A DNA stretch of 64,000 nt from Acetobacteraceae bacterium. GTDB lineage: Bacteria; Pseudomonadota; Alphaproteobacteria; Acetobacterales; Acetobacteraceae. A model generated the notes under the pieces. The model did not search any database. It was not told the DNA's origin and saw nothing but the letters and a program-made list of their open reading frames with translations. The translations under genes were made by a program, and so were the position numbers. Where the stretch lies: the NCBI GenBank assembly GCA_024280945.1, contig JAMXLO010000130.1:1-64000 (forward strand), read 5' to 3'. Below, piece by piece: positions 1 to 35,337 of this stretch. Position 1 is the first letter of the stretch; the number at the start of each line of letters is the position of its first letter.

Positions 1-827
1 TTGAGGATGATCTGCATTCCCGCGCTCTTCAGCTTGGGAATGGCATCGGGTGATGGCGCTTCGACGAAGTTGACCTGCCCGGTCAGCAGCGCAGCTGTAC
101 GTGTCGCGGCCTCCGGCATCGGCAACAGCACCAGTCGGTCATACTTGGCGATCCGTTTCGGGTCCCAGTACTCCTTGTTCGGCAGCATCTCGAGCCGTTC
201 ATGCGCCACCATGCGATCGAAGCGGAACGGCCCGGTGCCCGACGGGTGCTCGGCGTACGCGTTCCAGTCGTAGTTCAGCTGCTTGGCCCGGCATGGGCTC
301 ACCATCAGAATGTAGCTGGTCTGGTAGGGAAACAGCGATTCCACCACCTTGGTGGTGATCGCGACCGTGTGGTCGTCGAGCTTCTCGACCGAGGCGAAGT
401 TGGTCGTGTAGGCGCGCGACAGCGCCATCTGCTGTGTGTAGAACTGCGGTGCCTTGTCATCGGTGATGCGGCCGAAGTTCCAGACGACATCGTCGGCAGT
501 GAACGGACAACCGTCGTGCCATTTCACCCCCTGACGCAGCTTGTAGATCCAGCGGCGATGATCGTTCGGATCGACCTGCCACTCGGTCGCCAGTCCAGGC
601 TTGATGTCCGACGGCTTGTCGCTGCGGGATAGATCCCACAGGGCCAGCCCGTCATAGAGGTTGTACCCGACGAAGCGGAACCCTTCGAACCCCTGATCCG
701 GGTTGCCGGTCGTCGCTGGGATGTCGCCGGCAGTCATTGCGACCGTGAGGACCGAGTCGGCCTGCACCGGCGTTGCCAGCCAGCCAAGCAGACACGCCAG
801 GATCGACCGGGAAAGGATCGTTTTCAT
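1..827 (-). CDS. ABC transporter substrate-binding protein, family 5 (3' part missing)
   Basis: Periplasmic binding protein of the oligopeptide/dipeptide/nickel type (SBP_bac_5). The visible 275 residues start MKTILSRSILACLLGW, a typical signal peptide ending near VQA-DS. They then show the family's N-terminal lobe, with the phrases NLYDGLALWD, LATEWQVDPN, KWHDGCPFTADDVVWNF and HPSGTGPFRF. The gene runs off the left edge, so the C-terminal lobe and any permease genes lie outside the window. A GGGGCTTGGC stretch precedes the ATG; the ribosome site is weak. Family assignment is firm; the ligand cannot be read from the sequence. Confidence 0.88.
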   Translation of the reverse strand, partial: MKTILSRSILACLLGWLATPVQADSVLTVAMTAGDIPATTGNPDQGFEGFRFVGYNLYDGLALWDLSRSDKPSDIKPGLATEWQVDPNDHRRWIYKLRQGVKWHDGCPFTADDVVWNFGRITDDKAPQFYTQQMALSRAYTTNFASVEKLDDHTVAITTKVVESLFPYQTSYILMVSPCRAKQLNYDWNAYAEHPSGTGPFRFDRMVAHERLEMLPNKEYWDPKRIAKYDRLVLLPMPEAATRTAALLTGQVNFVEAPSPDAIPKLKSAGMQIIL

Positions 828-5232: not shown

Positions 5233-5442
5233 CACGCTGTGGCGGTGACAGAAGGCCTGGTCCCGGCCCTGCGGCGTCGGGGGCTCATGCGGACCGAATA
5301 CGCCGGCAGGACCCTGCCGAAAGTGCTGCATGAATCCTGGATGGATCAGATCTTAGGCAATAGCCTATAGATCATTCATCATCTGACATGCTTGCACGCA
5401 TCCGTGCCAGCGAATGCTGGATTCAGCGCCATCTGCGCTGGC

Positions 5443-6497: not shown

Positions 6498-7544
6498 ATG
6501 CAGCAAGCCGACGGCGTTCCTTCCTTGAGGTTTCCCCACGCGCATCCTCCGGCTCCCGGTGAGCTGGTTGCGATCGCCGATGGCGTCTGCTGGTTCCGGT
6601 TGCCGCTGCCCTATCGGCTCGACCACGTCAACATCTACCTCATTCGGGATGACGATGGATGGACGGTGCTCGACACGGGTCTCGGCACTGACGCCTGTCG
6701 CACCACATGGGAATCGATCCTTTCCGGATCGCTGGCCGGACAGCACCTGACATCCATGGTGGTGACCCACTTCCATCCAGACCATGTCGGCCTCGCAGGA
6801 TGGCTGGCCGCGCGATTCGATCTGCCGCTGTCGATGCCGCGACCCGAATATTTGTACAGCCTGGCACTGCAATATGCGCCGGGCGATCTTGGCGCAGACA
6901 TGCACCGACCTTTCTATCGGCGTCACGGGCTTTCGCCTGAGGTGACCGAAGCCGTGCTCGGCCGCGGCCATGAGTATTTGCGGCAAACGACCGGTGTGCC
7001 CACGACGTATCATCGCATCCAGCATGGCGACACGCTGCGCGTGGGCGCCAGGGCGTTTCGGGTGATCACCGGCGGTGGACATGCGCTGGAACAGGCGATG
7101 CTGCATCGCGCCGAAGACAAACTGTTCTTTGCGGCAGACCAGGTGATCGCGCGCATCTCGCCCAATGTCAGCGTGCATGCGATGGAGCCGGATCTCGACG
7201 CGCTGGGCATCTACCTGCGCTCGCTATCGGGGCTGCGCGATACGGTAAGCGACGACGTGCTGGTGCTGCCGGGACACGGGTTGCCATTCTATGGTTTGCA
7301 TACCCGGATCGCCGAGTTGCTGGAGCATCACACCCAGCGCTGCGGCGCGATCACGCAGGCGTGCCGGCAACAACCGTTGTCGGTGGCCGAATTGGTGCCC
7401 CATGTGTTTCATCGCGTGCTGGACGAACATCAGACAGGATTCGCGTTCGGTGAAGTCCTGGCGCACGTAAACCACATGCTGGTTCAGAACCAACTGGTGC
7501 TACAGACTGGCGCCGACGGAATCGATCGCTATCAGGCGCAATAG
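6498..7544 (+). CDS. MBL-fold metallo-hydrolase
   Basis: Metallo-beta-lactamase-fold hydrolase of 348 residues. The metal site motif HFHPDH lies at residues 91-96, after NIYLIRDDDGWTVLDTGLG. Further ligands would be the His of GGGHALEQAML (about 193) and that of VLPGHGLPFYG (about 260). The second metal motif departs from the usual TPGHTPGH pattern. The C-terminal part carries a helical region as in glyoxalase II-like or LACTB2-like proteins (HVFHRVLDEHQTGFAFGEVLAHVNHML). Substrate unknown. It stands alone between two other plus-strand units; the 237 bases before it show nothing recognisable. Confidence 0.85.
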   Translation: MQQADGVPSLRFPHAHPPAPGELVAIADGVCWFRLPLPYRLDHVNIYLIRDDDGWTVLDTGLGTDACRTTWESILSGSLAGQHLTSMVVTHFHPDHVGLAGWLAARFDLPLSMPRPEYLYSLALQYAPGDLGADMHRPFYRRHGLSPEVTEAVLGRGHEYLRQTTGVPTTYHRIQHGDTLRVGARAFRVITGGGHALEQAMLHRAEDKLFFAADQVIARISPNVSVHAMEPDLDALGIYLRSLSGLRDTVSDDVLVLPGHGLPFYGLHTRIAELLEHHTQRCGAITQACRQQPLSVAELVPHVFHRVLDEHQTGFAFGEVLAHVNHMLVQNQLVLQTGADGIDRYQAQ

Positions 7545-7657
7545 GCATCGGCTGGCGGGGTCGATCTGCGGTCCTTGCTGCGCCCTCCGTCACCCTTACC
7601 CACCGCGCGCATCCGCGTACGCTGGACTTGCGTCGTTTCGCCTGACAACCTTTCGTC

Positions 7658-10069
7658 ATGGCGCGCGACGAGATGGTGGATGGCAAAGGCGGCCTGCGCC
7701 CGCAATGGCGCAGCCTTCTTGGCGTACTCGCCGGCCTTGGCCACGCCGAACTCGCCGATCGTGCCAGGCGACTGGAACGGGTGATGCAAGACGACGGCGT
7801 CGCGAGCCTGTTGCCGGGCTCGCCGCCTGATCCGTGGCGGTTCGATCCGATCCCGCTGCCGCTGAGCCAGACCGAATTCCTGACGCTCCAAGCCGGACTC
7901 GTGCAGCGGGCACGATTGCTCGATGCGATGCTCACGGATCTCTACGGCGATCAGAAAATGCTGTCGCAGGGCGCGCTGCCGCCGGCGCTGGTGTACGCCA
8001 ATCCTGACTTTCTGCGCCCGTGTCGTCACGCTGGCCTTGGGTCGCTGCACTGCTATGCGGCGGATCTGCTGCGGACCGAAGATGGTGCGTGGAACGTGCT
8101 GGCTGATCGCACCGGGCTGGCCGATGGCCTGGCACACGTGCTGCAGAACAGGCGACAGCTGGGGCGGGTCATACCTGAACTGTTCGCATCGCAGTTGCTC
8201 TGCAATCTCGACCCGTTCGTGGAACTCTGCATGGACGCGCTGCGGCGAGCAGCCGGTAGTGCGAGAGCCGCGCTGCTGACCCCGGGGCACGACGATCCCG
8301 CGTGGTACAGCCATGTTCTGCTGGCACGCGAGCTGTCCTGCGTGCTGGTTGAAGGCGGCGACCTGACCGTGCGGGACGGTGGCCTGTTCCTGAAGACATT
8401 GCGTGGTCTGCAGCCGATCGGCGCGTTGCTGCGCGGAATTCCTGGGCGCTCGATCGATCCGCTGGAACTTGAGCCTGATGGTCTCGGTGTGCCCGGGCTG
8501 CTTGCGGTTGCTCGTCATGCGGTGCGCATTCTCAACAGTCCGGGCAGCGAGTTGGTAGAGGCGCCAGGGTTCAGCGCTTTCCTGCCTGATCTCGCGCGTC
8601 GGCTGCTTGGCGAAACGCTCCAATTGCCCAGCGTACCGACCGTCTGGCTTGGCACCACGGACAGACCGTTCGGCTGGCAGGCGATCCCGGCATTCGCGCC
8701 GTCATGGCGACCGGCTTCACCGGAGGAGGTTGCGGCCGCACCTTGGCGCTATGTCGCCCGCACTGTGGTCGAGCCGTCAGTTGCGCCTTGTCTGTCAGGC
8801 GATGGTCTTGTGCCGCGCCCAATACTGGTCCGCATGTTCCTGATGCGCGATCGTGGTGTCTGGCACGCCTTGCCGGGCGGCCTCGGCTGCGTTCTGTTCG
8901 ATGCGCTTCAGACTTGGCCTGATCAGGGATCGTTGCTCGCGAAAGATGTCTGGGTGTTGGCCGAAAATCCGGCCGCCATCGAGGGACCACCGCCCTTCCG
9001 GGCGGCGCCACTGGCGATCCGGCGCACGGCCGGCGACATGCCGAGTAGGGTGGCAGACAATTTCTTCTGGCGCGGTCGCTATCTTGAGCGGCTGGAAGGT
9101 GCAGCGCGACTGCTATGCCTGACCATCGGTCGGCTGAGCGGCCCTGCCCCCACGCCGCACGAGGTGGCAGAACTCGACGTGCTGATCGCATGCCTTGCCC
9201 AAGCCGGGCTCGTGAACGCCGATGCGGTTGCCGGCCTGGGCACCACGGCTCTCAGCCATGCCTTGCTGCGTGCGGCAGGCTCCTGGGGAGCGGTACACGC
9301 GCTGCTTGGGCAGGTGTCACGGCTCACCGGGCTGTTGCGCGACCAGCTGACGTCGGAGATGCACGCGGTCACGGCCCGCGGTATGCGCGAGGTCGAGGAG
9401 GCTCTGAAACGTATTCCTGGACCGGCCGACGGCCAGGCGCTGGATGCCGCATCTCGCGCTATGTCGCGGGTGCTGGGATTTGCGGCGGCGCTGTCCGGGT
9501 TGACGGCAGAGAACATGGTGCGGGGCGGCGGGCGGCTGTTTCTGGACCTGGGTCGTCGGGTAGAGCGGGCCCAGGCGATTGCTGACCAGATCGCCTGCGC
9601 GCTGGAGTTCCCAGGCGCGGCACGGCAGCCCGCACGAGTGGAGCACGGGCTGCGGCTGGCGCTGGAGTTGTGCGATTCCTCGATCACTTACCGCAGCCGG
9701 TACCTGTCGGTTCTGCAGCCGGCTCCCGCGCTCGATCTGCTGCTTGCGGACGAAGGCAATCCGCGCGGATTGGCGTTTCAGCTTGCGGCGATACGCAGTC
9801 TATTGAGCGAAATCGGCAGCGGAGCCGATACGTCGCTGGCGGCAATCGCCACCACTTTGCTCGACGAACCGGCGTCAATGGTGCGAACCCTGAGTGAGGC
9901 CGCCGATCAGTCCGTTGCGGCATTGTTTCTGCCGGCGCGCCTGCGCTCGCTGCGCGATGCCGTAGCGGAATTATGCGAGCGTGTGTCGCGCCGCTACTTC
10001 GCGCTGCTGCCGACCGCGCGTGCCGTCGGGATCGAAGTGCCGTCGCGGTCACTGCGCGGGGCCGCTTGA
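7658..10069 (+). CDS. Fused circularly permuted ATP-grasp / Alpha-E domain protein
   Basis: An 803-residue fusion of two domains usually encoded by adjacent genes. Residues about 30-455 form a circularly permuted ATP-grasp domain (DUF404/DUF407 type), with signatures LLDAMLTDLYGDQKML, SLHCYAADLLR, NVLADRT and HVLLARELSCVLVEGGDLTV. Residues about 460-795 form the helical Alpha-E domain (DUF403), opening MPSRVADNFFWRGRYLERLE. ATP-grasp proteins of this group are predicted peptide or amide ligases; the product is unknown. Its stop overlaps the TTG start of a transglutaminase-like gene, the third member of this conserved set. An ATG five codons further in is also possible. Confidence 0.85.
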   Translation: MARDEMVDGKGGLRPQWRSLLGVLAGLGHAELADRARRLERVMQDDGVASLLPGSPPDPWRFDPIPLPLSQTEFLTLQAGLVQRARLLDAMLTDLYGDQKMLSQGALPPALVYANPDFLRPCRHAGLGSLHCYAADLLRTEDGAWNVLADRTGLADGLAHVLQNRRQLGRVIPELFASQLLCNLDPFVELCMDALRRAAGSARAALLTPGHDDPAWYSHVLLARELSCVLVEGGDLTVRDGGLFLKTLRGLQPIGALLRGIPGRSIDPLELEPDGLGVPGLLAVARHAVRILNSPGSELVEAPGFSAFLPDLARRLLGETLQLPSVPTVWLGTTDRPFGWQAIPAFAPSWRPASPEEVAAAPWRYVARTVVEPSVAPCLSGDGLVPRPILVRMFLMRDRGVWHALPGGLGCVLFDALQTWPDQGSLLAKDVWVLAENPAAIEGPPPFRAAPLAIRRTAGDMPSRVADNFFWRGRYLERLEGAARLLCLTIGRLSGPAPTPHEVAELDVLIACLAQAGLVNADAVAGLGTTALSHALLRAAGSWGAVHALLGQVSRLTGLLRDQLTSEMHAVTARGMREVEEALKRIPGPADGQALDAASRAMSRVLGFAAALSGLTAENMVRGGGRLFLDLGRRVERAQAIADQIACALEFPGAARQPARVEHGLRLALELCDSSITYRSRYLSVLQPAPALDLLLADEGNPRGLAFQLAAIRSLLSEIGSGADTSLAAIATTLLDEPASMVRTLSEAADQSVAALFLPARLRSLRDAVAELCERVSRRYFALLPTARAVGIEVPSRSLRGAA

Positions 10070-10920
10070 TATACCGCGTGCGGCATGTGACCCGGTACGA
10101 CTACCAGACGCCTGTCGATCTTGGCGCACATCTTGCGCATCTGCGACCGCGCGCGTTGCCGCACCAGAAGGTGTTGCGGGCTGGCGTGCATGCTGCCCCG
10201 GCCGTGTCATGGCGGCGCGAAGGCACGGACCATTTCGGCAACGAGGTCACCTGGCTGTTCCTCGATGTGGTGCATGCGGCCTTCCAGGTGACGGCTGATG
10301 CCACTGTCGATGTGGCGTGCCCCGAGGCGCCGGAGGCCGGTGCAACGGCGCACTGGGAAGAGGTAGCGCGACAGGCCTGGACCGATTGGCAGGTCGCGGA
10401 GTTCCTGTTCGACAGCCCGCATGCGCCCGCTGATCATGCAGCACGTGCCTACGCGTTTGATTGCTTTCCGGCGAGGCGCCCGGTGCTCGACGCCCTGCTT
10501 GATCTCAGTGCGAGAATTCACCGGGACTTCACATTTCGCGCCGGCGTCACTTCAACCAGCACGCGGATCAGCGAGGTGCTGCGGCGGCGCGAAGGCGTGT
10601 GCCAGGACTTCACCCATCTCATGATCAGCGCGCTGCGCAGTTTCGGGCTGCCGGCGCGATACGTCTCTGGTTACGTCCGCACGCGCCCGACGCGCGCACG
10701 ACTTGGTGCCGACCAGTCGCATGCCTGGGTCAGCTGCTGGCTCGGTCCTGCGCATGGCTGGTTGGACGTTGATCCTACCAACGGGATCGTTGTGCGAGAT
10801 GAACACGTGGTGCTTGGCTGGGGGCGTGACTTCGGTGACGTCACCCCGTTGCGTGGGGTGATTTTGGGTGGCGGCGAGCAGACGCTGTCGGTGGAGGTGG
10901 TGCTGGAGGAAGCGACGTAG
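10066..10920 (+). CDS. Transglutaminase-like cysteine protease-fold protein
   Basis: 284 residues with the bacterial transglutaminase-like N-terminal region (YRVRHVTRYDYQTPVDLGAH) followed by a transglutaminase/protease core. The catalytic triad is visible as Cys in RREGVCQDFTHL, His in GADQSHAWVSCW and Asp in WLDVDPTNG. The TTG start overlaps the TGA of the ATP-grasp/Alpha-E gene (TTGA), so translation is probably coupled. A longer in-frame reading to 9973 overlaps the upstream gene and is not needed. The set is thought to make and cut or cross-link a peptide or amide, but the substrate is not established. Confidence 0.87.
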   Translation: MIYRVRHVTRYDYQTPVDLGAHLAHLRPRALPHQKVLRAGVHAAPAVSWRREGTDHFGNEVTWLFLDVVHAAFQVTADATVDVACPEAPEAGATAHWEEVARQAWTDWQVAEFLFDSPHAPADHAARAYAFDCFPARRPVLDALLDLSARIHRDFTFRAGVTSTSTRISEVLRRREGVCQDFTHLMISALRSFGLPARYVSGYVRTRPTRARLGADQSHAWVSCWLGPAHGWLDVDPTNGIVVRDEHVVLGWGRDFGDVTPLRGVILGGGEQTLSVEVVLEEAT

Positions 10921-10944: not shown

Positions 10945-11712
10945 TTACGAAAACCGGGAAAAGTCCGGCTTGCGCTTCTCGATGAATGCCTGGAACGCTT
11001 CGGCAGCCTCCGGCGACACGAGGCGTTCACGGAACAGCGCCAGTTCCTCTTCGATGCGCGCGGTGACATCGGTTGTGCCATGTCGCATGAGCCGCTTGGT
11101 CAGGCGCAGTGCCTGGGGCGGCAGCGCCGCGAGTTGGCGCGCGACGCCGCGTGCTGTCTCCATCAGTTCCGTATCGTCAACCACCCGGTTGACGAAGCCC
11201 CATTCCAGTGCTGTCGCGGCATCCATGGGCTCGCCGAGTAGCAGCAACGCGCTGGCGCGCTGATGGCCGAGGAGACGTGGGAACAGCAGCGAACTGCCCG
11301 CCTCCGGCACCAGGCCAAGGCTGGTGAACGGCATCACGAACCGTGCTGAACGAGCGGCGACGATGAGGTCGCAATGCATCAGCATTGTGGTGCCGACGCC
11401 GATGGCGGCGCCGTTCACCGCAGCGATCAGCGGCTTCTGCATTGCCGAGAGCGTGGGGAGAAACCGCGAGGAGGAACTCTCTGTGTTGCCGGTGGCGCGT
11501 GCCTGGAAGTCGGCGATGTCGTTGCCCGACGTGAAGGTATCGCCGGTGCCGGTCAGCAGAGCCACGTGCAGCGTCGGATCGGCATCGACCCGGATGAAAG
11601 CGTCGGCCACCGCGTCGTACATGGCCCGCGTGAGGGCATTCTTCTTTTCTGGCCTGTTCAGGCGGATTTCCAGCACCGCGTCGGTGCGCGCAATGACGAC
11701 GGTGTCCGTCAC
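10945..11712 (-). CDS. Enoyl-CoA hydratase/isomerase family protein
   Basis: Crotonase-fold protein of 255 residues. Family features are EIRLNRPEKKNALTRAMY near the N-terminus, the CoA oxyanion-hole segment GTGDTFTSGNDIADF and KPLIAAVNGAAIGVGTTML, and FVMPFTSLGLVPEAGSSLLF with the acidic residue expected at the active site. The GTG start overlaps the stop of speE (GTGA), so it is the last gene of the speD-speE unit. The chemistry (hydratase, isomerase or other) cannot be settled from sequence; no fatty-acid oxidation partners are adjacent. Confidence 0.87.
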   Translation of the reverse strand: MTDTVVIARTDAVLEIRLNRPEKKNALTRAMYDAVADAFIRVDADPTLHVALLTGTGDTFTSGNDIADFQARATGNTESSSSRFLPTLSAMQKPLIAAVNGAAIGVGTTMLMHCDLIVAARSARFVMPFTSLGLVPEAGSSLLFPRLLGHQRASALLLLGEPMDAATALEWGFVNRVVDDTELMETARGVARQLAALPPQALRLTKRLMRHGTTDVTARIEEELALFRERLVSPEAAEAFQAFIEKRKPDFSRFS

Positions 11713-12596
11713 GCGTGGTCGCCGGCGGCTGACATCGGGAGGTGCCCGGCGATATAGGGCGGCAGATTGAAGGCACCGACATGGATGTCCGGCGTCCAGT
11801 AGCGCGTCGTGCCGAGGATGCCGGATGCGTCGGCACGTGCGTGTATCGTATCGACACTTGCCTGCGTGAGCGAGGCGTCCTTCGCGGCCCAACCGAGCGT
11901 CATGAAGCCGCCGACATAGGTCGGCACCGCGGCGACGTAGGCGGTCACGTGCGGGAAGAACTTTGCCCGCCGCGCGCTGGTTTCGCGCAGTTCGCCGGCC
12001 TGCATGAATGGCACGCCGCATTGGTTCACCACCAGGCCGCGCGCGGTGAGAATTCGCGCGGAGTTGGCATAGAACTCGTCGGTGAACAGCACTTCGCCGA
12101 CACCGATCGGGTCGGTGGAATCGACGATGATCACGTCGAATGCCGCGTCCGGCGCGCGCTTCACGTAGTCGATGCCGTCACCCACGATCACCTCGGCACG
12201 CGGATCGTTCCACGCATCGCCGCCGATCTTTGGCAGGAACTGCTTCGCCAGGCGGATCACCTCGCCGTCAATCTCGACCATCACCGCACGCTTCACGCCG
12301 CGATGCTGCAAAACGCGGCGCAACACCCCGCCATCACCGGCGCCGATGATCAGCACGTTCGCCGCCGCGCCATGGGCCACCAGCGGCACGTGGGTCAGCA
12401 TTTCCTGGTAGACGAACTCGTCGCGCTCGGTGATCTGTATCACCCCGTCCAGCACCATGACGCGGCCGTGCGAGAAGCTCTCGAACAGCACGATATCCTG
12501 GAACGCGCTCCGCACGCGCGCCAGCTCGCGCTTCACCAGGAAACGCTGGCCCCAATCGGCGTACAGCGTTTCGTTGATCCAGCTATCGGTCGCCAC
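11709..12596 (-). CDS. speE: Polyamine aminopropyltransferase (spermidine synthase)
   Basis: Transfers an aminopropyl group from decarboxylated S-adenosylmethionine to putrescine, forming spermidine. The 295 residues carry the nucleotide site ANVLIIGAGDGGVLRRVL and the catalytic aspartate region DVIIVDSTDPIG. The N-terminal beta domain (WINETLYADWGQRFLVKREL, GRVMVLDGVIQITERDEFVY) is complete. It follows speD by one base and is coupled to an enoyl-CoA hydratase-like gene, so the decarboxylase and transferase come from one transcript. Confidence 0.95.
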   Translation of the reverse strand: MATDSWINETLYADWGQRFLVKRELARVRSAFQDIVLFESFSHGRVMVLDGVIQITERDEFVYQEMLTHVPLVAHGAAANVLIIGAGDGGVLRRVLQHRGVKRAVMVEIDGEVIRLAKQFLPKIGGDAWNDPRAEVIVGDGIDYVKRAPDAAFDVIIVDSTDPIGVGEVLFTDEFYANSARILTARGLVVNQCGVPFMQAGELRETSARRAKFFPHVTAYVAAVPTYVGGFMTLGWAAKDASLTQASVDTIHARADASGILGTTRYWTPDIHVGAFNLPPYIAGHLPMSAAGDHA

Positions 12597-12597
12597 G

Positions 12598-13026
12598 TCA
12601 GGCGATCAGGCCGCGTCGCTGTTCCGACAGCAGGATCGACCGGGGTGCGAAGACCTCCTTCAGCACCGGCAACGAATGGTAGGGATTGCAGCTGCCGCAC
12701 ATGAAGATGTCGACCGCGGCGAAGTTGCGCTCCGGCCACGTATGGATCGATATGTGGCTTTCGGCCAGCACCAGGACGCCGCTCACGCCGCCGTCGGGTC
12801 CGAAATGGTGGAAGTGGCTGTGCAGGATCGTCGCGTTGGCCGCTTCCGCGGCGTCGCGCAGTGCACGATCGATCAACTCGGGATCGGTGAGATTGCTCGC
12901 TTCCCACAGATCCAGAAGCAGATGTGTGCCGGCGAACTTCACGCCGTCCTTTTCGACGAAATAGTCCTTCTGCTCGACTTCGCGCGGAGCGTCGGAGACC
13001 ATCCCCAGTGGGCTGAGTGCGTCCAT
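12598..13026 (-). CDS. speD: S-adenosylmethionine decarboxylase proenzyme
   Basis: Pyruvoyl-dependent enzyme that supplies decarboxylated AdoMet to SpeE. The 142-residue proenzyme is of the short prokaryotic class. The self-cleavage site is intact: LAES-HISIHTWPE, with cleavage between E89 and S90 so that Ser90 becomes the pyruvoyl group. FAGTHLLLDLW and the cysteine-containing FMCGSCNP are the other family marks. The start MDALSPLG was chosen over an upstream in-frame start at 13083 because the earlier residues do not fit the family. Confidence 0.94.
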   Translation of the reverse strand: MDALSPLGMVSDAPREVEQKDYFVEKDGVKFAGTHLLLDLWEASNLTDPELIDRALRDAAEAANATILHSHFHHFGPDGGVSGVLVLAESHISIHTWPERNFAAVDIFMCGSCNPYHSLPVLKEVFAPRSILLSEQRRGLIA

Positions 13027-13172
13027 TGCGTACCCTGTTCCTACCAGCAGACGGCCTGTTGAACGGACGCATCCCGCGTCCATTCCCTCGGGCCAAGGTG
13101 GCGGAAGATGGGGAAAGGGGAGCCGGCATGCAAGAGGCCAGATTTGTCGAGGCCCGATCGGACCCTACGGCG

Positions 13173-16166
13173 TCACTCCGGGGGCGGCTGCAACGCCTTC
13201 AGCTGCCCCGGCAGACGGCCCGCCAGAGTCGCTTCCTGGCCGGAGCGTTTGAGGTCGGCAGTGCTGCGCACAGGGTCTGCGGTGAGCAGCCGGAACATGT
13301 CGGCCAATGGACCTGTATCCATCCGAGGCCCCTCGTGCTCACGGAGCACCGCAAGCGCCGCGTCATCACCCGCCCGAGCGGCAGCGGTCGCAAGGCGCAG
13401 CAATGCCCGGCGTTGGACGTCGTTCAGCTTCCCCGTGGGGGGCACGATCCGCGCGACGTAGGCGGCGAGCGCCTTTTGTGCCGCGGGCCAGTCGTTTGCG
13501 TGCTCCAGGATGGTTGCCCGAGCCTCATCTGCCGCCGCGTTGTCTTGCCCGTTCAGAGCGGCGAGCGCCCGCTCCGTGTCGCCGCGGCGCGCGTTGGCCT
13601 CGGCTGCCAGCAGGGTGCGATGTCGGGCGAGTTCGTCGGGCAGGTCCGGAGCGGCGGAGGCATCGAGTGCCGCAAGCGCTTCCGCCGGGTCGTTCTCTCG
13701 CAGCCGCATGGCGGCCAGCCGGGCACCGAATCCGGCCCGCGCCGCGGGAGCGTTGCTTGTCCGCATCAGTTTCTCGAGCACCGGGCCGGCGCGCCTGGGC
13801 AGGTCGAGCGCCAGCAGACGATCCGCCAATCTCGCCTGGAGAGCTTCCCCGTCCTGGCCGGTGGGAAGCAGGTCGGCATTTTCCTCGACCAGCGCCACCA
13901 GATCCATTGGCGGCAGTGTGCCCAATGCGTCGCCACGCAGCAGTGCCGTAAACATGTCGTGCAACTCGCCACGGATGGTCGCCTTTTGCTCGGGGAACAG
14001 CGCCTCGGTGTCCCGCAGCAGGTTGAGGGCAGGCCGCCAATTCCCGCTGCGGGCCTGCAGTTCGGCCAGACGCTCGCGCAGCGCGCGCTCCTGCTCGTCA
14101 CCGCGCCACGTATAGAGCAGCCGCTCCAGTTGATCGGCCGCCTGGGGGGCGCTGATGGCGCCCGTCGCCAGGCGCACCTCGACGGCGCGCATAGCTGCAC
14201 GGGCGTGCACCGACTGGTCCCGCGATTGGTCCAGCCGGTCGTATGCGGCCAGCGCTGCTTCGTTATCGTGCCGTGCTTCGGCAAGCATCGCACGCGCCAG
14301 GTCGAGTGATGCGTCGTTGGGTCGCGCGGCAAGCAATACTGCCGCCGTGGCCGTCTCGCCGCCGATAACCAGCGTTTCGGCGACCAAAGGAAGCAGGCGG
14401 TTCCGCATTTCCGCGGGCATGGACAGTGCCAGGGGCGCGGTAGCGCCAAAGGTGGCAGCTGCCTCCGCGGAACCGGGCTGCAGCTCGGCAAGCCGCACTG
14501 CACGCCAGAACACGACGTCATCGGCGGCCGGAAGCGCCGGGTCAGTGAGCGCGCGTGCCTCTTCAGGCCGGTGCGCCAGCAATGCAGCGATCGATGCCAA
14601 TGCTGCGGTCTTCTGCGAAGCAGCCAGATGAGGATCGTCGGTCGCGGCAAGGCGCAGGACGGCCCCGGCCTCCGCGCCAAGTCCGAGCGCCATCATTGTG
14701 CGAGCCACCAGCTCACGGCCCGGACCGCGCGTCAACACGGGCGTCGCTACAGTCGCCTGCATTTCCTTGCTCAGCCGATCAAGCAGGGCTTCATCAGGCT
14801 GGCTCGGGAAATCCACTAGTCTCGTCAGGCCGACCGAATGTGCGAGCTGGTCGCCGACGTCGGACGCTGGCGATAGCGCGTTGGCGCCGGTCACAACGAA
14901 TCCTGGAGCGGTCGGTCGCAGCCCGATGGTGTCGGCTTTCGGTTCCACCGCGACGCCCTGCCAGCTCGACAGCAAGATGAATTCCGCTGTGCGGCGCCGC
15001 ACGGGGACGCCTTGTCCGCTACTTCGTTGAGTGCCGACGAGCAGAGTGGTGCCGCTGTCCGGATCGACGATGCTGACGACCGCACCCGGGGTCGCGGCCG
15101 ATAGCGACAGACGGTCGTCCGCCACCGTCGCCTGGATCGGCCGCAGCGGCAGTTCCTGGGGACCGGCGGCAATGCGCCACGTATCCCCCACGCGCGAGGA
15201 TGCCAACGTTATGCCGGGATCGAGCGGCAAGCGGATCACCGTTGCGGTCGGCAGCGTCTGCACGATCGCCGAGCCGAATACAGGGTCGTCGCGCAGCGGG
15301 GCCAGATCGATGGTCCGTGACTTGTCCAACACGATAAGAGCGGCGTTACTCATCCGGAACACGGCCAGCCCGAGCTGCGGATCAGCCTTTATGTCCAGCG
15401 CGCCGTCGGCGGCATTGTCTGACACGTCCTCGGGCTGAGGCTTCTCGGTGGAGACAGCACTTTGAGGCGGCGAGGCAGGCGCCGCATCTGGCTGTTGCGG
15501 CACGGGCTGTGCGCCAATCTGTGGCGTACCCGCAGCCGCCGGCTTTGGTGCACTCGCAAGCTGCTCCTGTTCGGGCGCAATGACATTTGCAGGTGGAGCT
15601 GAGGCGGGAGCCCCGTCCGCGGTGTTGGCTGAGCTGGTCCGCCTGGTCGTGTCCGGCGTCGCCGCGCCTGGCGTTGGCGGAGGCGGTTTTCCAGCCTCCG
15701 GCTGCGCAGGCTGCGATTTCGCCGTCTCCGGCTTGATCGGCTGCGCATTGGCTTGGGCCGGTTTCGCAGCGTCTGGCTTGCGGGAGACCGCGGCTGGTGT
15801 TGCAGACGCTGCCGGTGGTGTCGCGGGATCCCGCACGTCGATGACGAGGAGGTCGCCGTACCGCCAGTCGTGCAACACCGTGCCCGGTGCCACATCGAGC
15901 GTGGCCCGTCCTGTACCGCCGTTGATGCCGATAACGTTATGCGGGATCGCATTGGCGGGGCCAATCTTCAGGTCGCTGCCGAACTGGATGACCACGTGCT
16001 GATCCTGCTGGGTCAGGTGATACTCGGTCCGCGGCGGCAGGGCGAAGGTGACACGGCCGTAGCCGTCGTGGCTGCCGACGCGCACAACGACGCTGGAGCC
16101 GTCAGCGAGGGCGCCCGCGGGCAGCAGCAGCGCCGATACGAAAACCCAAAAAGGGCAAGGCTTCAT
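13173..16166 (-). CDS. Large exported repeat protein of the motility operon (997 aa)
   Basis: Exported protein of unknown function, last gene of the fliL-fliM-motE-cheY-cheZ operon. Signal peptide MKPCPFWVFVSALLLPAGALA. Residues about 23-112 form an AMIN-like beta domain (VRVGSHDGYGRVTFALP, DWRYGDLLVIDVRDP). Then comes a long Pro/Ala/Gln-rich linker (about 113-260), a second beta-rich part (about 265-430), and a C-terminal half of TPR-like helical repeats (AMLAEARHDNEAALAAYDRL, ARRGDTERALAALNG). The ATG overlaps the cheZ stop (ATGA). The position and architecture suggest a periplasmic partner of the flagellar motor or envelope; this is inference. Confidence 0.75.
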   Translation of the reverse strand: MKPCPFWVFVSALLLPAGALADGSSVVVRVGSHDGYGRVTFALPPRTEYHLTQQDQHVVIQFGSDLKIGPANAIPHNVIGINGGTGRATLDVAPGTVLHDWRYGDLLVIDVRDPATPPAASATPAAVSRKPDAAKPAQANAQPIKPETAKSQPAQPEAGKPPPPTPGAATPDTTRRTSSANTADGAPASAPPANVIAPEQEQLASAPKPAAAGTPQIGAQPVPQQPDAAPASPPQSAVSTEKPQPEDVSDNAADGALDIKADPQLGLAVFRMSNAALIVLDKSRTIDLAPLRDDPVFGSAIVQTLPTATVIRLPLDPGITLASSRVGDTWRIAAGPQELPLRPIQATVADDRLSLSAATPGAVVSIVDPDSGTTLLVGTQRSSGQGVPVRRRTAEFILLSSWQGVAVEPKADTIGLRPTAPGFVVTGANALSPASDVGDQLAHSVGLTRLVDFPSQPDEALLDRLSKEMQATVATPVLTRGPGRELVARTMMALGLGAEAGAVLRLAATDDPHLAASQKTAALASIAALLAHRPEEARALTDPALPAADDVVFWRAVRLAELQPGSAEAAATFGATAPLALSMPAEMRNRLLPLVAETLVIGGETATAAVLLAARPNDASLDLARAMLAEARHDNEAALAAYDRLDQSRDQSVHARAAMRAVEVRLATGAISAPQAADQLERLLYTWRGDEQERALRERLAELQARSGNWRPALNLLRDTEALFPEQKATIRGELHDMFTALLRGDALGTLPPMDLVALVEENADLLPTGQDGEALQARLADRLLALDLPRRAGPVLEKLMRTSNAPAARAGFGARLAAMRLRENDPAEALAALDASAAPDLPDELARHRTLLAAEANARRGDTERALAALNGQDNAAADEARATILEHANDWPAAQKALAAYVARIVPPTGKLNDVQRRALLRLATAAARAGDDAALAVLREHEGPRMDTGPLADMFRLLTADPVRSTADLKRSGQEATLAGRLPGQLKALQPPPE

Positions 16167-16789
16167 TCGAAGCTGGCCAGCAGCTTGTCGATGTCCGACT
16201 GATCCATGGCAACGGTGGGATGCTGCGGTCCGTTCAGCAGCGCAGGCTCTGCCGGTTCGACGGTGCCAGCGATCGGTCCCTGGTGTTCGCTGGCGCCGAA
16301 GGTGGCGACGATCTGCGCGACTTTCGCCTCGATCGTCTTCAGCGTTGTGACGACCTTGGTGATGCGCTGGCCGGTGATGTCCTGGAAACTGCACGCCTCG
16401 TAGATCCGGGTGGTTGCATCCTGCAGTTTCGTTGCTGCCTCACCGGTGAGATCGGTCGCCACTTCGTCCAGTGTCTCACAGCTGCTCAGGATGGCATTGG
16501 TCGCAGTCGCGGTGTGCTCGACGATGGCGTCCAACTCGTCAGTGGCAAACGGGATGTGATTGTCAGTGATGTCGTCGACGCGCAACGCGGCGATTTCGGC
16601 CTTGGCGGACGCGATCGTCCGACCCAGCGCCTCGACCTCGGCCAGCACCGATGTCTCCTGCGCCGAGAGGTCCCCGCTCAGCGTCGACAATATGGCGCGC
16701 ACGACGTCGGCCACCAGATCCGGCTCTGTCGCAGGATATCGAAGCCTTATTGCGGCAAGACGGTCCGCCAGCTGGTCTGCATCAGCCAT
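16163..16789 (-). CDS. cheZ: Protein phosphatase CheZ
   Basis: Chemotaxis phosphatase acting on phosphorylated CheY. 208 residues, mostly helical. The catalytic segment ACSFQDITGQRITKVV places Asp at 137 and Gln at 141, matching D143/Q147 of E. coli CheZ. The C-terminal tail MDQSDIDKLLASFE is the short helix that tethers CheY. The start MADADQLADRL was chosen because upstream codons lie inside cheY. It overlaps cheY by eight bases at its start and the 997-residue gene by four bases at its end. Confidence 0.92.
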   Translation of the reverse strand: MADADQLADRLAAIRLRYPATEPDLVADVVRAILSTLSGDLSAQETSVLAEVEALGRTIASAKAEIAALRVDDITDNHIPFATDELDAIVEHTATATNAILSSCETLDEVATDLTGEAATKLQDATTRIYEACSFQDITGQRITKVVTTLKTIEAKVAQIVATFGASEHQGPIAGTVEPAEPALLNGPQHPTVAMDQSDIDKLLASFE

Positions 16790-33383: not shown

Positions 33384-33409
33384 GCCAGCGCCGCCTGTGA
33401 GCCAGCAGG

Positions 33410-33439
33410 CTTGTGCCCGGGTTTCCGCCAGCCCATCTA
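33410..33439 (+). promoter_or_regulatory. Sigma-32 (RpoH)-type heat-shock promoter for hslVU
   Basis: CTTG (33410-33413) is followed after 18 bases by CCCATCTA (33432-33439), matching the RpoH consensus of CTTG in the -35 and CCCCATnTA in the -10. hslVU is a classic RpoH operon in E. coli. A start some seven bases downstream of the -10 falls at about 33446-33448, on the hslV ATG, and no ribosome site is visible there. Confidence 0.55.
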
Positions 33440-33447
33440 AGCGCGTC

Positions 33448-34014
33448 ATGCAAAACACGAAGTTCGCCGTGGCTGACCCGACTGGGTGGCACGGCACCAC
33501 CATCCTGTGCGTCAGGCGGGATGGACACGTAGCGATGGCCGGGGATGGCCAGGTCTCGATGGGTCAGACCATCGTCAAGGGGAACGCCCGCAAAGTGCGC
33601 AGGATTGGTGCCGCCGGTACGGTCCTGGCCGGATTTGCTGGCGCCACCGCCGATGCGTTCACCCTGCTGGAACGCCTGGAGAGCAAGCTGGAGCGGTTTC
33701 CTGGCCAGCTCGAGCGCGCCTGCGTCGATCTGGCGAAGGACTGGCGGACCGATCGCTACCTGCGACGGCTCGAGGCGATGATGGCGGTGGCCGACAAGGA
33801 TCGCAGCTTCACCCTGACCGGCACAGGCGATGTGCTGGAACCGGAGGACGGCGTGATCGCGATCGGCTCGGGCGGCAACTACGCGCTCTCCGCCGCACGC
33901 GCGCTGATGGCCGTGGAAGGCCTGTCCGCCGAAGAGATCGCCCGGCGGTCGATGAAGATCGCCGCCGAGATCTGCGTCTACACCAACGACAACGTCATCA
34001 TCGAGACCATCTAA
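33448..34014 (+). CDS. hslV: ATP-dependent protease peptidase subunit HslV
   Basis: Proteasome-like threonine peptidase of 188 residues, forming a double hexamer that is capped by HslU. Mature proteins start at the catalytic threonine. Here a 16-residue propeptide ([16 protein letters not shown]) precedes T17-T18 ([20 protein letters not shown]). [14 protein letters not shown] and the C-terminus [11 protein letters not shown] are typical. Propeptides of this kind are usual in alphaproteobacterial HslV. Its stop is directly followed by the hslU ATG. The RpoH-like promoter ends nine bases upstream. Confidence 0.95.
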
Positions 34015-35337
34015 ATGGAAGTACCGACCTATTCGCCGAGAGAGATCGTCTCCGAACTCGACCGCTTCATCGTCGGCCAGACCGACGCAAAGCGGGCCGT
34101 GGCGATCGCGCTGCGCAACCGCTGGCGGCGCCAGCACGTGCCCGAGGCGATGCGCGAGGAAATTGTCCCGAAGAACATCCTGATGATCGGGCCGACCGGC
34201 TGCGGCAAGACCGAGATTGCACGCCGGCTGGCCAAGCTCGCACAGGCGCCGTTCCTGAAAGTGGAAGCGACCAAGTTCACCGAGGTCGGCTATGTTGGCC
34301 GCGACGTCGAAAGCATTGCGCGCGACCTGGTCGAGGCCAGCATCAATATGCTGCGCGAGGCCTCGCGCAAGGAAGTCCAGGCCCAGGCACAACTGGCCGC
34401 CGAGGAGCGGCTGATCACCGCGCTGGTGGGCGAAGGCGCGGCGGCGGACACGCGCTCCAAATTCCGTCGCATGCTGCGGGGGGGAGAATTCGAGCAGAGG
34501 GAAATCGAGATCGAAGTGGCGCAGTCGGGCGGGACGCCGATCGGCCAGCTCGACATCCCGGGCATGCCACCCGGTCAGGTGATCAACCTGGGCGAGATGA
34601 TGAAGGGCATGTTCGGCGGCCGTCCGACGCAGAAACGCAAACTGACGGTGGAGGCGGCGCGGCGGCTGCTGGAGGAGGAAGAGGCCGACAAGCTGCTGGA
34701 CAATGACCGGCTGACCAAGGACGCGGTGTCGCACGCCGAGAACAACGGCATCGTGTTCATCGACGAGATCGACAAGGTGGCGGCGCGGACCATGGAGGGT
34801 GGCTTCCGCGGCGGCGATGTCTCGCGTGAGGGCGTGCAGCGTGACCTGCTGCCGTTGATCGAAGGCACCACCGTCAGTACCAAGTATGGGCAGATAAAGA
34901 CCGACCACGTGCTGTTCATCGCCTCGGGCGCGTTCCACCTGGCGAAGCCCGCCGATCTGCTGCCGGAGCTGCAAGGGCGGCTGCCGATCCGGGTGGAGCT
35001 GTCGCCGCTGTCGCGGGCCGACCTGCGGCGGATCCTGACCGAGCCGGAGCACTCGCTGCTGAAGCAGTCAATCGCTCTGATGGCGACCGAGCAGGTGACG
35101 CTGGCGTTCACCGACGATGCGATCGACGCGCTGGCGGAGCTGGCTGCCGACATCAACGAGCGGGTGGAGAATATCGGCGCCAGGCGATTGCAGACCGTGC
35201 TGGAGCGGCTCTTGGAGGAGATCAGCTTCACCGCCACCGATAAGGCGGGCGAGACGGTGACGATAGACGCCGCCTATGTAAATGAACGGGTGGCGCCGCT
35301 GGCGCAGAAGGGCGATCTGAGCCGGTTCATCCTGTAG
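34015..35337 (+). CDS. hslU: ATP-dependent protease ATPase subunit HslU
   Basis: AAA+ unfoldase of 440 residues that feeds substrates to HslV. Walker A is GPTGCGKT (59-66) and Walker B is [13 protein letters not shown] (about 243-255). The inserted I domain lies between them ([20 protein letters not shown]). Sensor and arginine-finger regions are in [20 protein letters not shown] and [20 protein letters not shown]. The C-terminal tail ends LSRFIL, which inserts into HslV to activate it. No gap to hslV. Confidence 0.97.

Follow-up and report, generated by a model that had tools for sequence, protein, structure and literature searches.

Our study examined a 64 000-nucleotide stretch of an Acetobacteraceae genome (assembly GCA_024280945.1, contig JAMXLO010000130.1; hereafter the window) and two adjoining genes on its forward strand, one encoding an 803-residue protein in which a CP-ATP-grasp-like domain and an Alpha-E domain are fused (7658–10069) and the other encoding a 284-residue transglutaminase-like protein, here termed TG1 (10066–10920). 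We consider it probable that the fused protein is a conserved, non-catalytic pseudo-ATP-grasp/Alpha-E adaptor that works with TG1 as the cysteine enzyme, any ATP-driven step being carried out by a separate ligase. The fused type looks like a conserved pseudo-ATP-grasp because five motif residues are almost entirely gone while the predicted fold, the two ER motifs of Alpha-E and the transglutaminase triad are kept. If this is true, a large family has been named after a reaction beyond its ability, and the hunt for the product of the system should begin with the separate ATP-grasp and with DUF2126, a putative amidoligase found beside the fusion in most relatives. The fused protein would then offer a natural handle on substrate recognition by Alpha-E and transglutaminase, because their residues are the ones that are kept.

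The catalytic motifs of ATP-grasp enzymes (the E-x-N metal motif, the DDK and VK lysines and the Gly-rich loop) were sought in the window protein, which has A-D-R, E-A-P and A-I at these places and no loop. Aligned with separately encoded ATP-grasps, it carries VLADR (residues 147–151, 8096–8110) in place of VLEDN, with Glu replaced by Ala149 and Asn by Arg151; NSPGSELVEAP (residues 293–303, 8534–8566) in place of NAxGTGVADDK or close to it, so that DDK has become EAP and Asp-Lys is replaced by A302 and P303; and WQAIPAF (residues 340–346, 8675–8695) in place of LVVKxxxxSGGYG or close to it, where Val-Lys has become Ala-Ile (I343) and both the lysine and the Gly-rich loop are gone. The alignment (L008 numbering) comprised 107 fused proteins and 28 ATP-grasps encoded by genes of their own. 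E171, N173, D330, K331, K378 and G384–G385 are fixed in 28/28 of the separate proteins, whereas E171, N173, D330 and K331 occur in none of the 107 fused proteins and K378 in only four. An extended set added 50 fused proteins from a phylum sample (the 30 best loci and 20 picked from the other listed families), so that 50 of the at least 85 one-frame fusions in that sample were read. In the resulting 157 rows, which count the window twice (as WIN and L180), E171 is present in two, K331 in one, K378 in 13, and N173 and D330 in none; no row retains more than one of the five. As the fused set was collected for resemblance to this protein, it may lack active fusions of some other type. In an approximate maximum-likelihood tree of the ATP-grasp domain (FastTree), a branch of length 0.88 with a support of 1.0 divides the 156 fused sequences from the 28 separate ones. 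The original prediction was that the set makes, caps or trims a peptide or amide, and it had named loss of the ATP-binding residues as the observation that would speak against this; that loss is what was seen, both in the window and almost throughout the fused clade, and ATP-driven formation of a peptide or amide by the fused protein itself is not supported. A search of the open literature turned up no description of fused proteins that have lost catalysis, although Iyer et al. (2009), which lay outside that search, may contain one.

That the lost residues are those that bind Mg and ATP is a strong inference by analogy, drawn from the fold, from likeness to the motif of glutathionylspermidine synthetase (GspS) and from a weak local alignment. 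GspS is a ligase, and its E330, N332, K498 and K533, which we take to have catalytic roles, are invariant in 13 GspS sequences (alignment A4). Whole-profile hhalign gave no sequence link to GspS, and comparison of sub-regions did align the E-x-N motif, but weakly (P 0.1).

The fold itself appears to have been retained. Pfam assigned the fused protein to CP_ATPgrasp_2 (PF14403) with 295.2 bits against a cut-off of 32, the best stretch being residues 66–335 with a second stretch besides, and to CP_ATPgrasp_1 with 183 bits. An AlphaFold2 model of the whole protein, built from 49 sequences, had a mean pLDDT of 85.8, and its residues 1–435 (7658–8962), the domain predicted to be catalytically dead, superposed by VIA-align on 3n6x with a Z of 37.7 and a root mean square deviation of 3.0 over 416 residues at 29 % identity. 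The next structural matches were YgiC, GspS and glutathione synthetases, at Z about 20–24, and a profile search of the PDB returned 3n6x as the sole confident match. The predicted model has a glutathione-synthetase-like ATP-grasp fold. The protein of known structure, the CP ATP-grasp of Methylobacillus flagellatus (Mfla_0391), is a 474-residue chain without an Alpha-E part that retains VLEDN, ADDK and VVK..SGGYG, the motifs that the fused protein lacks. Likewise, GspS, YgiC and the eukaryotic glutathione synthetases share the overall fold, yet the glutathionylspermidine synthetases keep the E-x-N motif and two lysines, unlike the fused protein.

The remainder of the module is well preserved. 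The Alpha-E domain (PF04168, 181 bits against a cut-off of 20.8; residues 461–781, 9038–10000) is all helical in the predicted models and, when modelled alone, gave no Foldseek match at E ≤ 0.001 and a best VIA Z of 10.3, which is within chance for helical bundles. It contains a first ER motif (W471..R474..E477-R478, 9068–9091) and a second (G632-R633..E636-R637, 9551–9568), in which W471, R474, R478, G632 and E636 are present in all 156 fused rows, E477 in 154, R633 in 151 and R637 in 155. An hhalign comparison matched the two motifs to one another across 23 columns (E 0.001), and as two copies of a GRxxER helix motif they may be the trace of an old internal duplication. TG1 contains Bact_transglu_N (PF08379) and Transglut_core (PF01841) domains, and its putative catalytic triad of Cys179 (10600), His219 (10720) and Asp236 (10771), spanning 10600–10773, is invariant at each position in 25/25 aligned transglutaminase proteins; the best reading of this sequence is a transglutaminase/peptidase with a putative Cys-His-Asp centre. 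In our reading, the ATP-grasp half would no longer make an acyl-phosphate or amide. It would most likely serve as a shell that binds substrates or partners and holds peptides or amides in place for Alpha-E and TG1, and TG1 would use its Cys-His-Asp centre for amide hydrolysis or transfer.

Other residues of the ATP-grasp half, acidic and basic ones among them, have stayed and may allow a ligand to bind. In the 157 fused rows, R187, D261, D293 and R440 are present in 157, N321 and D478 in 156, R161 and N186 in 154, D172 in 151 and D158 in 148 (Glu otherwise). These residues also lend themselves to a different explanation, namely that the ATP-grasp half binds a nucleotide or substrate but no longer catalyses a reaction, and that it regulates TG1 or DUF2126 by sensing ATP. 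The invariance of R187, D261, D293 and R440 in both the fused and the separate groups suggests a kept pocket or shell, but both lysines that by analogy contact ATP are mostly gone and the ligand is putative; we regard this regulator as possible but less likely.

The fusion is not an oddity of one assembly. Used as a query, the fused protein found a match in 76/120 relatives (own genome included); by row count the one-frame fusion was present in 47/120, one of which (G105) has a stop inside the aligned stretch, and three further genomes (G003, G013 and G040) held partial copies only. In the phylum sample, 156/299 genomes matched the fused profile. The one-frame fusion, defined as at least 525 model positions with no stops and counted by hand, was present in at least 85 of the 156. 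This rules out a rare fusion and qualifies the earlier statement that the two domains are usually separate genes, which is only half right. Among named genomes, 162 stretches matched the pattern and 95 of them encoded a relative; the best 80 of these 95 came mostly from Acetobacteraceae and Sphingomonas, but also from Planctomycetota, Verrucomicrobiales and Myxococcales. A chance or artefactual origin of the fused open reading frame is excluded by the Pfam scores and because full-length one-frame relatives occur in many genomes, mostly with a transglutaminase gene next to them.

The original prediction was right in its coordinates and in describing an 803-residue fusion with a transglutaminase-like gene starting in its stop codon, and the database search that it proposed for the same fusion and its neighbours bore out the co-occurrence of the three domains in relatives. 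A transglutaminase gene lay next to the fused gene (same strand, within 600 bases) in 136/147 fused loci with room for one (at least 300 bases), one more locus lacking such room. Three of the 11 loci without one next to the fusion (L051, L060 and L108) have a transglutaminase frame longer than the 1000-residue filter, one (L086) has the gene about 0.9 kb off and one (L098) a piece cut by the end of the locus; no transglutaminase was seen in six of the 147 (L041, L042, L196, L202, L203 and L218), for the last four of which less than 1.5 kb of downstream sequence was covered. In the window the TTG start of TG1 (10066–10068) overlaps the TGA of the fused gene (10067–10069), both frames being open. 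The one same-genus relative examined, G001, has a four-nucleotide overlap (GTGA) at the same junction, and by alignment the transglutaminase start lies four nucleotides ahead of the point where the stop codon of the fused gene ends in 64/136 loci. TG1 is probably translationally coupled to the fused gene. The lasting fusion also makes it plausible that the first two domains act in one polypeptide or complex, as had been claimed.

Further genes of the system were sought around the fusion and elsewhere in the genome. The gene order in G001 is DUF2126, fused gene, TG1, a second transglutaminase gene (TG2) and an M81 peptidase gene. DUF2126 was present in 42/47 genomes with the fusion versus 9/73 without it (Fisher P 6e-18, kinship ignored), two of those nine (G003 and G013) holding partial fused copies, and it was directly upstream of the fused gene in 33/42. 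No match to DUF2126 was found by profile in the draft genome that contains the window, and the G001 protein used as a query matched only the two transglutaminase paralogues there. Its usual place upstream of the fused gene is occupied in the window by a gene for an MBL-fold hydrolase (Pfam; 6498–7544, forward strand), whose membership of the set is uncertain and to which no similar open reading frame was found in the other loci scanned. Only two genes carrying PF08379 were detected across the assembly. TG2 lies on another contig, C103 (L009 10063–15900), where ABC-transporter genes (two BPD_transp_1 permeases and a SBP_bac_8 binding protein) stand between it and the M81 (MlrC-like) gene, whereas in G001 TG2 adjoins M81 in the DUF2126 operon. 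Separate ATP-grasp and Alpha-E genes whose motifs are intact lie at the end of contig C140, and this pair may provide the active ligase partner. As DUF2126 was not found and the second transglutaminase gene is on another contig, any ATP-driven step here would come from the C140 pair.

A second, separate Alpha-E gene was present in 45/47 fused genomes (the exceptions being G032 and G069), while 29 genomes had Alpha-E without a complete fused gene, which is the asymmetry expected of an accessory arm. In most relatives the module lies behind DUF2126, itself a putative amidoligase with its own transglutaminase domain, and the genome almost always also encodes an ATP-grasp and an Alpha-E protein in separate genes that keep their motifs. 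The locus in the window would then be a reduced arm of a peptide-tagging system, linked to nitrogen, that the literature has already predicted. More broadly, we lean towards the view that the fused proteins of Pseudomonadota, Planctomycetota, Verrucomicrobiota and Myxococcota form a widespread pseudo-ligase clade, annotated as ATP-grasp, that diverged once from the catalytic clade and was kept as a dedicated non-catalytic subunit, that active and inactive arms of the predicted peptide-tagging system cooperate, and that this genome and some others, among them four more of the 47 fused relatives, run the inactive arm without DUF2126. In the Sphingomonas-type loci (L071–L073, L075–L081, L083–L105 and L107–L118), no DUF2126-like frame was recognized upstream within the flank covered, and a version without DUF2126 beside the fused gene may be common in this group.

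Several points weigh against an adaptor that has lost its catalysis and depends on a ligase elsewhere. Single motif residues survive in some fused rows, the Glu in L184 and L225, the first Lys in L182 and the second Lys in 13, and D158, R161 and D172 persist, so that the protein may bind a nucleotide or a metal or may have altered its chemistry. The residues were counted in relatives collected for their resemblance to this protein, against a separate set of only 28 members, and the role of the lost residues was transferred from GspS by fold and motif, with a motif-only profile alignment at P 0.1. The genome is a draft of 156 contigs, and a gap somewhere other than at this locus might conceal DUF2126. 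Purifying selection speaks for the adaptor. Ratios of non-synonymous to synonymous substitution (dN/dS) between the window and G001 were about 0.22 for residues 1–450, 0.11 for Alpha-E, 0.12 for TG1 and 0.09 for the separate ATP-grasp; they indicate that the ATP-grasp half is under purifying selection, though looser, but they are rough as dS is near 1.

Another reading is that the pair in this genome is a decaying relic, left behind when DUF2126 and the original operon were lost. Such decay would account for the failure to find DUF2126, for the position of TG2 and M81 on another contig with transporter genes between them, and for the places where the window protein departs from residues shared by many relatives (u244 E to S, u286 R to G and u458 R to C). 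However, the frames are intact, the transglutaminase triad and ER motifs are kept, four other fused relatives (G044, G064, G083 and G114) also lack DUF2126, and dN/dS is well under 1, though this comparison cannot date the loss; we judge a relic to be unlikely. It is slightly more unlikely, in our estimation, that the fused protein continues to work as an ATP-dependent ligase in which substitute residues serve Mg and ATP. Its fold is kept in the model, D158, R161, D172, N321, R440 and D478 are nearly fixed and purifying selection is clear, but not one of the 157 fused rows keeps two of the five residues, and all five are present in the genome's own separate paralogue. Membership of an Anbu-type peptidase operon, suggested by the ATP-grasp, alphaE and transglutaminase genes that such operons contain (PMC6376114, PMC5666114), is highly improbable and is refuted for this assembly, where no Anbu peptidase gene was found and the sole proteasome-family match is HslV (NCBIfam; window 33397–34014), followed by an HslU-like open reading frame (33397–35337 together).

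The set in the window can be compared with systems described previously. Iyer et al. (2009) reportedly predicted a peptide-tagging/modification system with an ATP-grasp, Alpha-E, a DUF2126-type ligase and a transglutaminase. This prediction is cited in PMC6376114 and PMC5666114. The window resembles it in bringing together Alpha-E, an ATP-grasp fold and a transglutaminase gene, and differs in that neither DUF2126 nor Anbu was found in this genome and the fused ATP-grasp lacks the catalytic motifs. A literature search for DUF2126 found no paper. The Yersinia bercovieri Anbu operon likewise has the ATP-grasp, alphaE and transglutaminase set, but it includes Anbu and its ATP-grasp is separate and active, releasing phosphate from ATP; with Anbu as bait, no specific interactions among the operon proteins were detected (PMC6376114). 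In Burkholderia cenocepacia H111, genes I35_5080–5083 (DUF404/DUF407, DUF403, transglutaminase-like and large transglutaminase-like) form a cluster controlled by NtrC and sigma-54 (PMC5491218), with ATP-grasp and Alpha-E separate, whereas in the window they are fused and no sigma-54-like site lies just upstream.

Regulation of related sets was examined by scanning 25 loci (L039–L061, L063 and L067) for the sigma-54-like site TGGCAC-N5-TTGCW with at most one mismatch. A site was found on the forward strand in 14/25 loci and on the reverse strand in none. The start of DUF2126 is included in 17/25, of which 13 have a site (L044–L048, L050–L054, L059, L060 and L063), nine of them perfect, giving −24/−12-like elements before the DUF2126 operon; 11 of the 13 lie 33–389 bases before the inferred DUF2126 start, that of L050 about 1.1 kb before it and that of L051 at the front of the DUF2126 frame. 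Four loci with a DUF2126 start have no site (L039, L040, L055 and L058), and the 14th site, in L061, is inside the fused gene. A narrower scan of 25 long transglutaminase-bearing frames found five with a site versus 0.84 expected by shuffling. No such site was found just upstream of the fused gene or the MBL-fold gene, and sigma-54 control was rejected for this locus; nor was one found in the G001 stretch examined. The one-mismatch site at 5439 is not evidence for it, because three such sites occur on the forward strand of the whole window (none on the reverse). Published work ties related sets to nitrogen limitation, through NtrC-dependent expression in Burkholderia (PMC5491218) and through higher expression of P. 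putida PP_2688 and PP_2685 on nitrate than on ammonium (PMC8050072), which makes the question testable in laboratory strains.

Some further features of the locus were noted. At E ≤ 0.001, NCBIfam returned no family for the fused protein, TG1, the G001 DUF2126 protein or the separate ATP-grasp, and no RNA elements reached the gathering score in window positions 1–20 000. The ATG of the fused gene is not preceded by a clear Shine–Dalgarno sequence (7545–7657), and coupling to the upstream MBL-fold gene is possible. On the reverse strand, a 1073-residue open reading frame (13173–16394) has no Pfam match at E ≤ 0.001 and lies beside putative flagellar-looking genes. Genes for a spermidine synthase (Pfam) and an adenosylmethionine decarboxylase (NCBIfam), also on the reverse strand (11709–13083), begin less than 1 kb from the end of TG1. 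GspS acts on spermidine, but the adjacency of these genes to TG1 may be chance.

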